Source: Halorubrum sp. Hd13 | GTDB taxonomy: Archaea > Halobacteriota > Halobacteria > Halobacteriales > Haloferacaceae | DNA: 48,041 nt | Direction of reading: 5' to 3' | Assembly (NCBI RefSeq): GCF_002252755.1 | Contig: NZ_NHOY01000126.1 | Coordinates: forward strand, 1 to 48,041 | Shown here: positions 1-8,968 of the stretch, in pieces | Position numbering within the stretch: position 1 is the first letter of the stretch | How the letters are laid out: the number at the start of each line of letters is the position of its first letter | The notes under the pieces: model-generated | Told to the model about the DNA's origin: nothing | Database searches by the model: none | The model's input: only the letters and a program-made list of their open reading frames with translations | Translations under genes and position numbers: made by a program

Positions 1-332
1 CCCCAGCCGCGAGGGCGGCGCACGCTCGCTGCGCTCCTCGGTCGCTCGTTACACTCACTCCCTGCGGTGCTTACGTCGCCTGTGCCGCCCTCGCGGCTGC
101 CCCTTTGAATCCCACCCGACCGCCCAGCGACCGCACCTCATCCCTCCCCAGCCTCGTCAGTCGCTCTCGCTCCGCTTCGGGCGACTGACTCCAGCGAGGG
201 ACCGGAGGTCCCTCTGGCAGCCGGCGCTACGCGCCGGCGACAGCGAGGCGCAACGCGCCTCTGGCAGTCGGGCGAAGCCCGACGACCTCGCGCGTGCTGC
301 TCGGCCGCGGGAGCGGCCTCGCAGGCACGCGC
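1..332. repeat. Array of perfect inverted repeats (hairpin cluster), non-coding
   Basis: Direct reading shows a 16-bp perfect inverted repeat (4-19 with 84-99), a 9-bp one (156-164 with 181-189), then four triloop hairpins in a row: 196-203/207-214, 220-227/231-238, 245-251/255-261 and 267-273/277-283. The linkers between them are short (TGGCA twice, GACAGC once). A final long hairpin has arms 290-297/325-332 and contains an inner stem 303-308/313-318. Open frames here are side effects of high G+C. The region lies beyond the 3' end of ubaA; 333-439 shows nothing recognisable. It may be a dispersed haloarchaeal intergenic element, a termination region or a structured RNA; the sequence alone does not decide. 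Confidence 0.75.
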
Positions 333-439: not shown

Positions 440-1294
440 TCAGTCGTCCGCTTCGATCTCCGGCTCGTCGCCGCCGACATCGATGGCGCAGGAGGCGCTG
501 TAGTCGACGTCGTGGACCGACTCGATGGCGGGGTCGTCGCCGCACACCGGGCAGTCGTCCTGTTTCGGAATCTCGACCTTGTCGAACTCCATGTCGAGCG
601 CGTCGAAGAACAGCATCGAGCCGTCGAGCGACTCGCCCTCGCCGATGATGTGTTTGACCGTCTCGGTCGCCTGCAGACAGCCGACGGTGCCGGGGAGCAC
701 GCCGAGGACGCCGGCGGTCGCGCAGTTCGGGACCATCCCGGCCGGCGGCGCCTCGGGGAACAGACAGCGGTAACACGGCGAGTCGTCGTCGCCCGCGAAC
801 GTCGTCACCTGCCCCTCGAACTTGAAGATGGAGCCGTGCGAGAAGGGGACCCCGGCGAGCGTGCAGGCGTCGTTGACGAGGTACCGCGTCGCGAAGTTGT
901 CCGTGCCGTCGACGACGAAGTCGTAGCCCTCGATCAGCTCCTCGACGTTGTCCGGGGTCACCCGCAGCTCGTGCTTCCGGACGTCGATGTCGGGATTGAG
1001 CCCCTCGACGAAGTCGGCGGCGGAGTCGACCTTCTTCCGTCCCACGTCGTCGTTCCCGTGGATCACCTGGCGCTGGAGGTTCGACAGTTCGACCTCGTCG
1101 TCGTCGGCGACGCCGAGCGTCCCCACCCCGGCGGCGGCGAGGTACTGGATGATCGGCGCGCCGAGCCCACCGGCGCCGAGCACGAGCACTTCGGCGTCGA
1201 GCAGGGCCTTCTGCCCCTCGGGACCGACGTCGTCCATGATGATGTGCCTGGAGTACCGGTCGAGCTGCGTCGGATCGAGGTCGAGGTCGCTCAT
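440..1294 (-). CDS. ubaA: UbaA: E1-like SAMP/ThiS/MoaD-activating adenylyltransferase (ThiF/MoeB/HesA family)
   Basis: This 284-residue protein adenylates the C-terminal glycine of ubiquitin-like carriers (SAMPs, MoaD, ThiS). In Haloferax the single UbaA serves protein sampylation, tRNA thiolation and molybdopterin synthesis (family knowledge). Seen here: the nucleotide-binding GAGGLG at residues 40-45, the Rossmann core, the DGTDNF motif near 129-134, two Cys pairs for structural zinc (CYRC 174-177, CPVC 248-251), and Cys191 in the NCATAGVLG segment at the place of the catalytic cysteine. Its length matches MoeB-type E1s without a rhodanese tail; the separate rhodanese at 3405 may supply sulfur. 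The ATG at 1294 was chosen because the family N-terminus begins there (RYSRHI) and a TTATT promoter box sits about 27 bases upstream; an open extension to 1438 is not credible. Confidence 0.93.
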   Translation of the reverse strand: MSDLDLDPTQLDRYSRHIIMDDVGPEGQKALLDAEVLVLGAGGLGAPIIQYLAAAGVGTLGVADDDEVELSNLQRQVIHGNDDVGRKKVDSAADFVEGLNPDIDVRKHELRVTPDNVEELIEGYDFVVDGTDNFATRYLVNDACTLAGVPFSHGSIFKFEGQVTTFAGDDDSPCYRCLFPEAPPAGMVPNCATAGVLGVLPGTVGCLQATETVKHIIGEGESLDGSMLFFDALDMEFDKVEIPKQDDCPVCGDDPAIESVHDVDYSASCAIDVGGDEPEIEADD

Positions 1295-1635
1295 TTGCCG
1301 CCGCTTGTCGCTGCAAACCAATAAGACGGCCGCCCACCGGCGCGTGCTGCCGACATCTCGGAGATGCGCCCGGTTCGCACGACCGGTTGCGCATCTGGGG
1401 ACGGCCCGCGGCGCATCGGGGGACGGCCCGCAACGCATCGAGAGGACGACCGGCGGCGCACGGGGAGCCGGCCGGTACCGCGCCCGACGACGGCCTCGCT
1501 CGACTCGTCGCGGACGCGGGACCGACGGCAGACGTCCGTCGCGGGCGCGTCGCTCCGGGCTCGGCGGTCGTGTTAGACCGGGGCCACCGTTGCCGTCGGC
1601 GGGGTCCTTTTTTGACTGGGACGAGAACCGCTAAT
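1295..1635. other. Intergenic region with degenerate 22-bp tandem repeats and a near-palindrome
   Basis: This 341-base gap separates the divergent ubaA and the ubiquitin-like gene. It holds about three to four imperfect tandem copies of a 22-bp unit beginning GCGCATC: 1389-1410, 1411-1432, 1433-1455, and a weaker copy after 1456. Before them lies a near-palindrome at about 1363-1395 (GATGCGCCCGGT facing ACCGGTTGCGCATC). A T-run at about 1607-1616 fits a TATA position for a leaderless start at 1636. No convincing gene was seen. Confidence 0.6.
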
Positions 1636-1899
1636 ATGGCCACGATTAAGCTGCCGGCCGTCCTCGTCGGCGGGTCCGCGACCTCTGAGGTCGAGGTCGA
1701 AGGGGAGACCGTCAACGAACTGTTCGACAACCACGCCGACGAGCACGGCCCGGAGCTCAGAGACAGCGTGCTCGAAGACGGCGAAATAAAGGAGTTCATC
1801 AACGTCTACGTCGAGGGGACGCCCGTCGACGGCGTCGACGCCGAGGTCCCGGCAGACGCGCAGGTCCGCGTCATCCCGGCGGCGTCCGGCGGTCGGTAA
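1636..1899 (+). CDS. Ubiquitin-like small sulfur carrier (MoaD/ThiS/SAMP family) with C-terminal GGR
   Basis: This 87-residue beta-grasp protein belongs to the MoaD/ThiS/SAMP class, which carries sulfur as a C-terminal thiocarboxylate or is conjugated to proteins after activation by UbaA. Seen here: the family core ending in FINVYVEG (54-61) and the tail PAASGGR followed by a stop. The family normally ends exactly in Gly-Gly; here an Arg follows, so a protease (JAMM type) would have to expose the diglycine, or the protein is not used in this way. It sits between ubaA and a CysM-like cysteine synthase, recalling the mycobacterial CysO-CysM arrangement (known). The ATG at 1636 starts the beta-grasp strand directly and has a T-rich promoter box about 27 bases upstream. 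Which carrier role it plays is inference. Confidence 0.88.
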   Translation: MATIKLPAVLVGGSATSEVEVEGETVNELFDNHADEHGPELRDSVLEDGEIKEFINVYVEGTPVDGVDAEVPADAQVRVIPAASGGR

Positions 1900-1932: not shown

Positions 1933-2952
1933 TTATAAGTAGTCCTCCCAGAGCGGGATGTCCGCGTACTTGTCGCCGCGGTCGCACAGCATGAAGACGA
2001 CGACGTCGTCGTCGTCGAGCTCGCCCGCCGCGTCCAGGTTCGCCACGACGGCCGCGCCGCCGCCCGCCGACGTGCCCACGACGAACTGATCGTCGACGCG
2101 GAGGTGCTCGCGGACCGTCGCCTCGTCGTGCTGGCCGAGGTCGGCGATCGGCACCGGCTCGTCGAGGTAGCGCTCGCGGAGCGCCCGCGCCTGGTCGTAC
2201 GCGTCCGAGGTGGCGACGTACTCCGTCCGGTCGAGCACCGACTTGTCGTACGTCTCGGGGTGGTAGTGGTCGCCCGTCTTGAGGTATTTCAGGCCGTCGA
2301 TGGCGTGGAGCTGCTCGTCGGGCTCGAAGCCGACGATCTCCGTCGCCCCGTCGCTCAGGTCCGTCAGGCCACGGCCGGTCCCCGTGATCGTCCCGCCCGT
2401 CCCGACCCCCGCGACGAAGTGAGTCACGTCGCCGTCGGTCGCCTCGTATATCTCCCGGGCGGTCGTCCGCTCGTGGGTGCCCGGGTTGTCTGGGTTCTCG
2501 TACTGGTTCGGGCGGAAGTACGCCTCTGGGTCCGCGGCGATTATCTCCTCGCAGCGCTCGATGACGGCGTCGTAGCCGAGGTTGGCGTCGACGAAGTGGA
2601 TCTCCGCGCCCGCGTCCCGAACGGCGTCCACCTTCCCGCCGGCGGCGTTGTCGGGCATGACGATCTCGACGTCGTAGCCGCGGGCGGCCGCGAGCCGCGC
2701 CACCTCGCTGCCGGTGTTGCCCGAGGTAGGCTCGATGACGGTGACGCCGGACTCGAGGTCGCCGCGCTCCTCGGCGCCGTCCAGCATCCCCTTCGCGATC
2801 CGGGACTTGATCGACCCGCCGCCGTGGGGGGCGTCGTAGAGGTTGAACCACTCCGCCTTCGCGTACACGTCCGCGTCGGCCCCGAGGTCGAGGTCGAGCT
2901 CCACGAGGGGCGTCTCGAAGATCGTCGACTCGTCGACGACGTACTGGCTCAT
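1933..2952 (-). CDS. PLP-dependent cysteine synthase, CysM/CysK-like
   Basis: This 339-residue fold-type II PLP enzyme belongs to the O-acetylserine or O-phosphoserine sulfhydrylase family. Seen here: the PLP lysine in GSIKSR (Lys49; the usual motif is KDR), the substrate loop EPTSGNTG (about 74-81), the phosphate-binding GVGTGGTITG, and the C-terminal serine loop GTSAGGG. Length is typical. It ends 34 bases from the end of the convergent ubiquitin-like gene, so a carrier-dependent CysO-CysM pathway, in which protein thiocarboxylate donates sulfur, is plausible but unproven. The ATG at 2952 has a TTACC promoter box about 26 bases upstream and the N-terminus (STIFETPLVEL) matches the family. 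Cystathionine beta-synthase activity is an alternative. Confidence 0.9.
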   Translation of the reverse strand: MSQYVVDESTIFETPLVELDLDLGADADVYAKAEWFNLYDAPHGGGSIKSRIAKGMLDGAEERGDLESGVTVIEPTSGNTGSEVARLAAARGYDVEIVMPDNAAGGKVDAVRDAGAEIHFVDANLGYDAVIERCEEIIAADPEAYFRPNQYENPDNPGTHERTTAREIYEATDGDVTHFVAGVGTGGTITGTGRGLTDLSDGATEIVGFEPDEQLHAIDGLKYLKTGDHYHPETYDKSVLDRTEYVATSDAYDQARALRERYLDEPVPIADLGQHDEATVREHLRVDDQFVVGTSAGGGAAVVANLDAAGELDDDDVVVFMLCDRGDKYADIPLWEDYL

Positions 2953-3102: not shown

Positions 3103-3402
3103 ATGAGCCAACCATCGTGGGACGACGTCGTCGAGATGCCCGACGAGCTCGACGACGAGACCGCCGAGGCGCTCTTCGATGACGCGACCGAAGTACAGGA
3201 CATGACCGGCGAGGTCTGCCCGTACCCGCAGGTCGAGGCCAAGAAGGCCGTCGCGGGGCTCTCCCCCGGCGACGTGCTCGTCCAAGAGACTGACCACGTC
3301 CCGAGCACGGAGAACGTCCCGAAGGCCGTCGGCGACGACGCGACCGCGAAGGTCTGGAAGTCGGGCGACGGCCGCTACCGCATCTTCATGCGGAAGGAGT
3401 GA
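3103..3402 (+). CDS. TusA-family sulfur carrier protein
   Basis: This 99-residue protein has a TusA/SirA/YedF fold. Its diagnostic motif is CPYP with Cys39, followed by the helix QVEAKKAVAGL; this cysteine carries persulfide in the family. About 30 acidic residues precede the domain, a haloarchaeal extension. A TTACAC promoter box about 27 bases before the ATG at 3103 supports a leaderless start. The next gene, a rhodanese, begins at the stop codon, so the two are translationally coupled and probably pass sulfur between Cys39 and the rhodanese cysteine (inference). With a YeeE/YedE transporter nearby, this reproduces the common YeeE-TusA-rhodanese association. Confidence 0.92.
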   Translation: MSQPSWDDVVEMPDELDDETAEALFDDATEVQDMTGEVCPYPQVEAKKAVAGLSPGDVLVQETDHVPSTENVPKAVGDDATAKVWKSGDGRYRIFMRKE

Positions 3403-3404
3403 TC

Positions 3405-3740
3405 ATGGTCGAAGAACTCACCCCCGAGGAAGTCAACGAGCGCGTCCAGAATGGCGACATCCGCGTCATCGACACGCGACCGCAGGAACAGTACGAGCGG
3501 GGTCACATCCCGGGCGCTATCAACGTCCCGCTCGGCGACCTCCCGTCGATGGTCCCGGACATCGACTGGGACGACAGGGACGTCGTCTGCGCGTGTCCGG
3601 TCGGCCAGTCGTCGAAGCAGGCCGCGATGCTGATCAGCAGCTACGAGGGCGTCGAGGAAGACATCGTCGTCGCCAGCATGTCCGGCGGCTACGAGGAGTG
3701 GGACTTCGAGCTGGAGACCGACGCGTCCGCCGACGCGTAG
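3405..3740 (+). CDS. Single-domain rhodanese (sulfurtransferase)
   Basis: This 111-residue rhodanese has the entry motif VIDTRPQEQYERGHIPGA and an active-site loop CPVGQSS (Cys64), matching the CxxGxxS pattern that holds a persulfide. The family moves sulfane sulfur from thiosulfate or persulfides to acceptors. The ATG at 3405 was chosen over a GTG at 3399 because a near-consensus archaeal Shine-Dalgarno (GGAGTGATC) ends just before it and overlaps the tusA stop, showing coupling with tusA. Likely partners in the cell are TusA and UbaA, whose own C-terminus lacks a rhodanese domain (inference). Confidence 0.93.
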   Translation: MVEELTPEEVNERVQNGDIRVIDTRPQEQYERGHIPGAINVPLGDLPSMVPDIDWDDRDVVCACPVGQSSKQAAMLISSYEGVEEDIVVASMSGGYEEWDFELETDASADA

Positions 3741-5075: not shown

Positions 5076-6284
5076 TCAGATCGCGCAGCCGACCTCGCGG
5101 TACATGTAGTGAGTCATGACGTAGACGCCGAGGATGATCCCCCCGCCGGCGAGGAACGAGTGCACGGAGAGCAGCGCGATCCCCGAGAAGAGGTTCGCGA
5201 TGTTGCAGCCGGCGGCGAGCCGCGAGCCGACGCCCATCAGGAGGCCGCCCGCGGCGTAGTTCGGCACGCGGTTCAGCTTCGGTTTCCGGATCCGGAAGTC
5301 GCCGGAGGCGTACGCGGCGAGGAAGGAGCCGACGACGAGCGACGCGATCATCACCATGTCGATGCTCAGGGAGATGTCGCCGTCGCGGAAGAGGATCGAG
5401 CCCCAGTACTCGACGCTCGCGACGTCGTAGCCGGTCTGCGCGAGGAGGTAGCCGGCCCAGCGCGCCTCGCTGCCGGTGATCGCCCAGTGGCCGTGCACGT
5501 AGAACCAGAGGCTCGCGACGACCGCCATCGCGACGCCCGCGGTCCGCGCGTCCCACGAGTCGCGGAGCCGGACTCTCACCGGTCGGTCGTCGCCGCGGAG
5601 GCCGCGGACGTACTCGACGGTGCCGTCGGCGATGCCACGCAGGCCGACCGAGACGGCCGAGAGCGTCCGAGAGGCGCCGAGAACGGCCTGCGCGCGTGTG
5701 TCGGCCCCCACGCCGGTCCCGCCTGAGGGGTCGTCCGGGAGCCGGCTCCGCCCCTTCACGAACGCGTACGCGACGGTGCCGGCCGCGACCGCCAGCGTCC
5801 CCGTGATCGCCGGCGAGAACGGCAGCGAGAGGTACAGCGTCCGCCCTTCGAACGGGTTCAGCGTCTGGAAGTAGTACGTCTCCGCCACGGGGAACGCGAA
5901 CGCGAAGAGGACGTACCCCACGAACATGAAGAGGAGGACGAGCCAGAACTGGAGGTACCCCTGTCCGGCCCGATAGAGGGTGCCGGACGCGCAGCCGCCG
6001 GCGAGCGTCATCCCGAGGCCGAAGACGAAGCCGCCGAACAGCGACCCCAGCCCCCACGCGGGCGTCCAGAAGCCGCGGAAGTAGCCGAACGTGGCCTGCA
6101 GGCTCCAGAACACGGTCATCACCGCGAGCCCGGCGAGCAGTCCCTTCAGCACGCGCGTGTCTTTGAACGCGACGAAGTCCCGGAACGCGCTGACGAAGCA
6201 GAACCGCGCCTTCTGTAACAGCACGCCGAACGAGAGGCCGACCGCGATCGATATCCCGACGTACGCGACGGGAGACAGTATCAT
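5076..6284 (-). CDS. YeeE/YedE family membrane transporter (thiosulfate/sulfur compound uptake)
   Basis: This 402-residue multi-pass membrane protein is formed of two related halves. In the family (YeeE/TsuA) thiosulfate is relayed through the membrane by conserved cysteines. All three expected cysteine motifs are visible: KARFCF (Cys29), AGGCASGTLYRAGQG (Cys98) and LAAGCNIANLFSG in the last quarter. A hydrophilic loop of about 100 residues rich in Gly and charged residues separates the halves. The ATG at 6284 was chosen because the first helix (ILSPVAYVGISIAVGLSFG) begins there; an upstream open extension is not hydrophobic. Divergent to the Tat lipoprotein operon and near TusA and rhodanese, it is probably the entry point for sulfur into the locus (inference). 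Confidence 0.93.
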   Translation of the reverse strand: MILSPVAYVGISIAVGLSFGVLLQKARFCFVSAFRDFVAFKDTRVLKGLLAGLAVMTVFWSLQATFGYFRGFWTPAWGLGSLFGGFVFGLGMTLAGGCASGTLYRAGQGYLQFWLVLLFMFVGYVLFAFAFPVAETYYFQTLNPFEGRTLYLSLPFSPAITGTLAVAAGTVAYAFVKGRSRLPDDPSGGTGVGADTRAQAVLGASRTLSAVSVGLRGIADGTVEYVRGLRGDDRPVRVRLRDSWDARTAGVAMAVVASLWFYVHGHWAITGSEARWAGYLLAQTGYDVASVEYWGSILFRDGDISLSIDMVMIASLVVGSFLAAYASGDFRIRKPKLNRVPNYAAGGLLMGVGSRLAAGCNIANLFSGIALLSVHSFLAGGGIILGVYVMTHYMYREVGCAI

Positions 6285-6439
6285 TACGCGGGTCGAGTGC
6301 TCCCCGGCGTAAAACGTCGCTGAAGACGGTAACGGTGCGCGATGATCAGAGGAACAAACAACATTTGCCGCTATTTGACACACGGGGCAACGAAGCGCGC
6401 CTCCGGGAGCCCTTTAGGCGCGAGCCGCGTCGTGGGGAT

Positions 6440-7819: not shown

Positions 7820-8968
7820 ATGGCCTCGGATAACGTGCGCGACGACGGTCCCGCCGACCCCGCCGAGAGCGACTCGCCCGCCGACCCCGCCGAGAGCGAC
7901 GCGGCCGGAGCAGACGAGACGAGCGGGTCCGATCCCGCGTCGACTCGCCGAGGCCTCCTCCGCGCCGCGGCGGGTGCGACGGCCGCCGGCGCGGCGAGCA
8001 CGGCCGGCTGTCTCGGGATCACCACCCCGGCCGACACCGCCGCGCAGTACGGGCTGAGCGGGAACGTCTCGCACTTCGTCGGACCGAGCTGGCTCGCCGA
8101 GAACCGGGGGGACGTCGTCGTCCTCGACGCTCGCGACCCCGAGCGCTTCCGCGAGGAGCGGATCTACGGCGCCAGGCGCGTCCCGTTCGACGCGGTCACG
8201 CGCCGAGCGTCGACCGACGCCGGACTGGTCCCGGACGTCGAGGCGATCGCCGACGCGTTCGGTGAGGTCGGGGTGTCGCCCGACGACGACGTCCTCGTCT
8301 ACGGCGCCAGCGTCGGGTCGCGAGTCACCCGGACCGCGTTCGCGCTCGTCGCCTTGGGCCACGCCGGATCGGTCCGCGTCCTCAACGGCGGCCTCTCGGG
8401 CTGGAACGGTCGGCTCGGAACGGGCTCCCGCGACCGGGTCGAGCCGACCGAGTACGAGGCCGACCCCGCCGCGTCGGCGTGGGTCACCCGCGAGTGGCTC
8501 GCCGACCGCGTCGGGACGTTCAACGGCGACGGACCGGGGCTCGTCGACGTGCGCGTCCCGGAGGCGTACCTCGGAGCGCCCGCCGCCGACGCCCTGAATC
8601 CCGACAACGACCGCCACGGACATCTCCCCGGGGCGATCGGCGTCCACTGGGTCGGCAACGTCGACGGCCGGCGGATGACGGACCCGGGCGAGCTCGTGCA
8701 GCTGTACGAGAACCGGGCGGGGCTCGACCGCTCGGGCACCGTGGTCGTCTACGGCGACGACAACGTCGACCCCACGTCCACGTGGCTGACGCTGCGGGCG
8801 ATCGGCTTCGAGGACGTGCGGCTGTACGACGGCGGGTTCGGCGAGTGGTCGAACGTCGAGGGGGACCGCGGGCGGTACCCCGTCGAGACCAAGACGAGCG
8901 CCGTGATCGAGACGGAGGGGAGCGTCGGCGGCGACGACGGCGGCGGCGACTTCTCCTGTACCGGATGA
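7820..8968 (+). CDS. Tat lipoprotein with tandem rhodanese domains lacking catalytic cysteines
   Basis: This 382-residue protein starts immediately after the previous stop. The leader has two copies of PADPAESD, a Tat motif TRRGLLRAA (Arg43-44) and lipobox TAGC (Cys64). Two rhodanese domains follow: domain 1 with VVLDARDPERFREERIYGA, domain 2 with LVDVRVPEAYLG and HLPGAIGVHW. The active-site loops read VYGASVGSR and VYGDDNVDPTS, where the family has a cysteine after VVY; both are missing. A cysteine remains only at the C-terminal FSCTG. It may bind rather than transfer sulfur, or use that terminal Cys. Thiosulfate sulfurtransferase annotation by homology would therefore be misleading about activity. 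It is part of a three-gene operon on the external face. Confidence 0.88.
   Translation: MASDNVRDDGPADPAESDSPADPAESDAAGADETSGSDPASTRRGLLRAAAGATAAGAASTAGCLGITTPADTAAQYGLSGNVSHFVGPSWLAENRGDVVVLDARDPERFREERIYGARRVPFDAVTRRASTDAGLVPDVEAIADAFGEVGVSPDDDVLVYGASVGSRVTRTAFALVALGHAGSVRVLNGGLSGWNGRLGTGSRDRVEPTEYEADPAASAWVTREWLADRVGTFNGDGPGLVDVRVPEAYLGAPAADALNPDNDRHGHLPGAIGVHWVGNVDGRRMTDPGELVQLYENRAGLDRSGTVVVYGDDNVDPTSTWLTLRAIGFEDVRLYDGGFGEWSNVEGDRGRYPVETKTSAVIETEGSVGGDDGGGDFSCTG

Follow-up and report, generated by a model that had tools for sequence, protein, structure and literature searches.

A CysO-like sulfur carrier with one residue past its Gly-Gly, linked to a second UbaA, a CysM-like synthase and a JAMM peptidase in Halorubrum

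QbsE/QbsD of Pseudomonas and HcyS/HcyD of Wolinella are carrier-protease pairs in which the carrier has one or two residues past its Gly-Gly and a JAMM protease removes them; QbsE and HcyS are bacterial and serve the synthesis of thioquinolobactin or homocysteine rather than a cysteine synthase of the CysM type. In the mycobacterial pathway, MoeZR thiocarboxylates CysO, CysM forms a CysO-cysteine adduct, and Mec+ hydrolyses the adduct (PMC3227635). Bacterial operons that combine ThiS/MoaD, E1, JAB and cysteine synthase genes were described by Iyer et al. in 2006 (row 4c; PMC1779556). In archaea, HvJAMM1 cleaves a linear SAMP1-MoaE fusion precisely behind the C-terminal Gly of SAMP1, restoring function in cells (PMC4443979), and CsJAMM processes the SAMP precursors of Caldiarchaeum subterraneum (PMC6043591). 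Four-family clusters in bacteria and JAMM-processed carriers are, thus, already known. Our literature search returned no direct source on C-terminal tails of haloarchaeal ubiquitin-like proteins (Ubls). As far as the literature searched shows, the new elements are the haloarchaeal version of the system, its dedicated E1, the exact co-occurrence with CysM in the genus, and a lineage-specific tail spread over three Ubl families.

We analysed a stretch of 48,041 nucleotides of Halorubrum sp. Hd13 (hereafter, the window; its genome is referred to as G000), in which the following features were considered:

1-19, plus strand: left contig end, identical over 19 bases to contig C56 when the end of the latter is reversed
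440-1294, minus strand: UbaA2, a second, cluster-specific E1-like adenylyltransferase of the ThiF/MoeB/UbaA family (family match, tree)
1605-1614, plus strand: conserved CCTTTT(T) box, 24-30 nt upstream of the carrier ATG
1636-1899, plus strand: CysO-like beta-grasp sulfur carrier, 87 aa, C-terminus PAASGG-R
1888-1893, 1894-1896 and 1897-1899, plus strand: C-terminal carrier codons, namely Gly85-Gly86, Arg87 and the stop codon TAA
1894-1896, plus strand: tail residue Arg87, which masks the C-terminal Gly-Gly (conserved in the genus, codon-change count)
1933-2952, minus strand: PLP-dependent cysteine synthase of the CysM/CysK family (family match, co-occurrence with the carrier)
3103-3402, plus strand: TusA-family sulfurtransferase (family match, synteny)
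3405-3740, plus strand: single-domain rhodanese (family match, synteny)
5076-6287, minus strand: YeeE/YedE-type sulfur (thiosulfate) transporter (family match; tied to the cluster by position only)
7820-8968, plus strand: two-domain rhodanese, possibly exported (tied to the cluster by position only)

The earlier note had described the carrier as a protein with a masked Gly-Gly, ending in GGR, and both the open reading frame (1636-1899, plus strand) and its translation (87 aa, MATIKLPAVLV...VRVIPAASGGR) agree. In Pfam the carrier is assigned to ThiS (24.1 bits; cut-off 22.5), while in NCBIfam it falls near SAMP1 and archaeal MoaD, under both cut-offs, with 46.1 bits against the SAMP1 equivalog NF041918, whose 60-bit cut-off is passed by the other two Ubls of the same genome. 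A profile built from 15 orthologues was compared with the PDB sequences of solved structures only, and ranked CysO of Amycolatopsis (4n6e_B, E 1e-9) and of M. tuberculosis (3dwg_C, 2e-5) at the top, with SAMP1 (3po0, E 3e-3) behind them. The same two CysO structures came first in a Foldseek search (TM 0.82 for 4n6e_B and 0.78 for 3dwg_C) with an AlphaFold2 model of the carrier, whose mean pLDDT is 86 and whose last four residues are below 50. The carrier is nearest to CysO by sequence and by fold, not to SAMP1; its score below the cut-off and the ranking, with CysO ahead, rule out a SAMP1 orthologue. Upstream of its start codon, the CCTTTT(T) box is probably the archaeal TATA box of a leaderless transcript.

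The neighbours had been read as ubaA and a CysM-like gene. Both family assignments, E1-like and cysteine-synthase-like, broadly stand, while the identification with the canonical UbaA does not, since the canonical gene of this genome lies at C39:68969-69769, which also rules out the adjacent E1 as the sole UbaA. Against the NCBIfam UbaA model (NF047750, cut-off 450 bits), UbaA2 scores 477 bits and the canonical copy 520 bits. Carrier-positive genomes of the genus encode a cluster E1 that is 90-100% identical to UbaA2 plus a 62-69% identical copy elsewhere; carrier-negative ones have only the canonical type (60-69%), with the exceptions of G013, in which no UbaA copy was found, and G011. All 27 carrier-positive genomes of the genus have UbaA2 and none of the 25 carrier-negative ones does; in a tree, the cluster E1s from several families are separated from the canonical copies with a support of 0.997. 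UbaA2 has no fused rhodanese domain; for this reason, the separate single-domain rhodanese nearby is the likely sulfur supplier. In the carrier-negative G011, a 70-residue C-terminal remnant of a cluster E1 (L222, C106:18602-18814) lies beside an intact JAMM gene and appears to be the fossil of a lost cluster.

CysM is found at high identity in all 27 carrier-positive genomes of the genus and in none of the 25 carrier-negative ones, as raw genome counts that ignore kinship, although in G020 it is represented only by a contig-end fragment, and G042 and G032 carry it with an interrupted reading frame. The link with the carrier persists where CysM is 72-81 kb distant or lies on a different contig, and in a draw of 392 genomes from the order, 27 of the 28 carrier-positive genomes have CysM, the exception being 64% complete. 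Conversely, G101, G105 and G106 encode a CysM of 63-69% identity with no carrier found at the cut-off used, and homologues at approximately 50% identity also occur without a carrier. Two of the latter (L177 in G324 and L179 in G283) are close to a UbaA, and a different Ubl may serve them. The active-site insertion of CysM was rejected as a carrier-docking mark because carrier-free homologues have the same insertion, which leaves no carrier-specific signature. The window's genome also encodes a serine acetyltransferase homologue, so the ordinary sulfide/O-acetylserine reaction is possible. An AlphaFold2 model of CysM built without an alignment (pLDDT 40) was unusable.

A JAMM/MPN+ protease, invoked by the earlier note for removal of the tail, is encoded in the genome, and synteny places it next to the cluster. 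Of three Prok-JAB matches, the strongest is a 142-aa protein at C56:936-1361 (minus strand), which passes the haloarchaeal desampylase cut-off (155 vs 130 bits) and has an intact E...HSH...SxxD motif, whose catalytic residues are kept in all aligned relatives. In 25 of the 27 carrier-positive genomes of the genus, JAMM lies within approximately 5 kb of the carrier, the other two, G000 and G004, having it on another contig; it is near the carrier in all 19 relatives compared and directly adjoins it in G177, G179 and G192. In relatives the genes usually run JAMM, E1, carrier, CysM, TusA, rhodanese, an order that is reshuffled outside the genus. In G000, the left end of C56, when reversed, overlaps window positions 1-19 exactly, which would place JAMM approximately 0.9 kb beyond window position 1. 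Since the core of this stretch occurs, among 248 loci, only at these two contig ends and, inverted, at window positions 84-99, and since the far side of JAMM on C56 is syntenic with G009, JAMM likely adjoins the window in its own genome. An inverted repeat at positions 1-103 (arms 4-19 and 84-99) probably caused the assembly break.

Taken with the linkage to JAMM and CysM, the closeness to CysO bears out the kinship with Mec+/CysO/CysM that had been proposed. As in M. tuberculosis, a cysteine synthase, an E1-like activator and a JAMM peptidase are linked to the carrier; unlike the CysO/CysM/Mec+/MoeZ system, the one described here is archaeal, its carrier is tailed, its JAMM is of the haloarchaeal desampylase type, and a separate rhodanese and TusA are found in place of an E1-rhodanese fusion. 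The bacterial operons of row 4c cluster the same four gene families, including in the organism abbreviated Srub, but their members are bacterial and have the E1-rhodanese fusion, and the row includes no haloarchaea. The Haloferax SAMP1/UbaA/HvJAMM1 system draws on the same superfamilies, but the Halorubrum carrier fails the SAMP1 cut-off and pairs with a second UbaA paralogue, and no tail is described for native Haloferax SAMP1. We take Srub to be the halophile Salinibacter ruber. The Caldiarchaeum precursors are likewise archaeal Ubls cut by a JAMM, but are not tied to a cysteine synthase (PMC6043591).

With moderate confidence, we propose a cysteine pathway of the CysO/CysM/Mec+ type in haloarchaea, in which the carrier is made as a one-residue precursor trimmed by JAMM. 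This reading is based on anatomy, conservation, co-occurrence, gene linkage, the intact JAMM motif and fold prediction; from these we infer tail removal, thiocarboxylation, transfer to CysM and cysteine release. Arg87 would be trimmed off the carrier by the HvJAMM1-family desampylase whose gene lies beside the cluster, UbaA2 would adenylate the exposed Gly, and sulfur from rhodanese and TusA would yield the carrier thiocarboxylate. The CysM-like enzyme would then take the thiocarboxylate and build cysteine on the carrier, and the same JAMM would probably also free the cysteine and regenerate the carrier, as Mec+ does. Because JAMM would cut after Gly-Gly in each cycle, short tails would be tolerated and could drift, which would account for an unchanging Gly-Gly followed by tails of differing sequence and length.

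We examined the carrier in 49 genomes in all, including the 27 of 52 Halorubrum genomes in which it was found, and the Gly-Gly is invariant in 49/49; the ends align on this pair instead of scattering into varied termini that lack it, the outcome that the earlier note had named as refuting its reading. Exactly one residue follows in 27/27 Halorubrum carriers (R in 25 and Q in two), an agreement among genomes that rules out a sequencing or frameshift error as the origin of Arg87. Outside the genus, the tails have 0-3 residues (R, RR, RV, QF, QA, CSP, AR, SR, TRA, QSK, Q, TGQ, G, or none), and only four of the 49 genomes (G147, G149, G177 and G179) have a bare-GG carrier. In a control phylum search, none of the 21 homologues checked from archaea other than haloarchaea has any residue past its terminal GG, so that a tail appears to be haloarchaea-specific.

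That tails differ so freely between genera, and reach up to eight residues in SAMP1-like paralogues, is what would be expected of a roleless leftover, trimmed by JAMM or any carboxypeptidase and kept by stop-codon drift. This explanation is compatible with the proposed pathway, and we regard it as a tentative possibility. Against it, changes were counted on the tree of the neighbouring E1 gene for 28 sequences (the genus plus one Haloquadratum), with none at position 1 of the tail codon, two (both R to Q) at its position 2, and a mean of 4.9 (median 4) at the 36 fourfold sites of the carrier gene; this test is weak, as it concerns one codon and 31% of the sites have two or fewer changes. Additionally, nine of the 28 tail codons (seven CGA and two CAG) are one C-to-T transition away from a bare GG, and none of the sequences has lost its tail. 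These counts suggest weak constraint on the tail within the genus, although a single codon is no proof.

Masked Gly-Gly ends are widespread in haloarchaeal Ubls, and three Ubl families are tailed in the window's genome. Its SAMP1-like protein ends in GG-SIGR (L112, C16:36252) and its MoaD-like protein in GG-A; thus, the statement that SAMP and MoaD proteins end in free GG fails in Halorubrum. Across the genus, SAMP1-like tails (L193-L212) include AVGR, SVGR, AADR, LADR, ALGRESDR and others; they mostly have four residues, are often R-final, and are absent in several genomes. In three genomes (L094 in G003, L099 in G001 and L090 in G155), the MoaD-like Ubl continues for approximately 110-135 residues past PPVAGG, an extension with no Pfam match and with its own AGG end; cleavage would be required to free the internal Gly-Gly.

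The earlier note had read the carrier as processing-controlled, that is, the Arg tail would be a deliberate lock and the abundance or activity of JAMM would set the timing of carrier activation. A tail held at one residue (R or Q) in the genus, with fewer changes than most fourfold sites, would suit such a switch, as would the tailing of three Ubl families in one genome and the adjacency of JAMM. Nevertheless, all four genomes with tail-less carriers keep a JAMM near the carrier, tails vary freely among relatives, and Prok-JAB matches occur in 69/70 genomes tested, including carrier-negative ones of the genus. The family as a whole can dispense with the tail; a regulatory role for it, while possible, finds no support here, and we consider a lock of this kind unlikely. 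The near-universal Prok-JAB matches also rule out JAMM as an exclusive partner of the carrier, and its presence without the carrier implies that it is not exclusive to the cysteine pathway. Its retention beside tail-less carriers calls for another job, the obvious one being a Mec+-like release of cysteine from the carrier. Therefore, within the proposed pathway, constitutive maturation with a Mec+-like release step fits better than a switch.

The membership of JAMM in the desampylase family, together with the double role of Haloferax SAMP1 as sulfur carrier and protein modifier (PMC4443979), would also agree with a SAMP-like tag attached to lysines, for which UbaA2 would be the E1 and JAMM the desampylase, with CysM linked to it as a regulated, tagged target. 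We find this quite improbable, since the carrier is nearest to CysO, stays under the SAMP1 cut-off and occurs, in the genus, in exactly the same genomes as a biosynthetic enzyme. That the mature carrier keeps its Arg and is never activated, acting only as a structural partner of CysM, is very hard to reconcile with the invariant Gly-Gly in 49 genomes and with a dedicated E1 that co-occurs exactly in the genus.

More speculatively, and with considerable doubt, haloarchaea may have evolved eukaryote-style precursor tails independently on several Ubl families, with a single desampylase JAMM that must license both the transfer of sulfur and the tagging of proteins ahead of any E1 and that also releases cysteine, as both gatekeeper and recycler. 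Through the cysteine pathway proposed above, haloarchaea would probably make cysteine by way of a carrier protein, served by a second, dedicated E1 that is hidden in current annotation as "ubaA". Where Ubl precursor processing came from, and what it is for, can be tested in organisms with genetics, with Haloferax as host, and work on sampylation that presumes a free Gly-Gly should take precursors into account.

Further along the window, the YeeE/YedE-type transporter probably imports sulfur and, together with the further rhodanese at 7820-8968, suggests thiosulfate as the sulfur source. By eye, the N-terminal region of this rhodanese resembles an export signal, and sulfur transport genes adjoin it.
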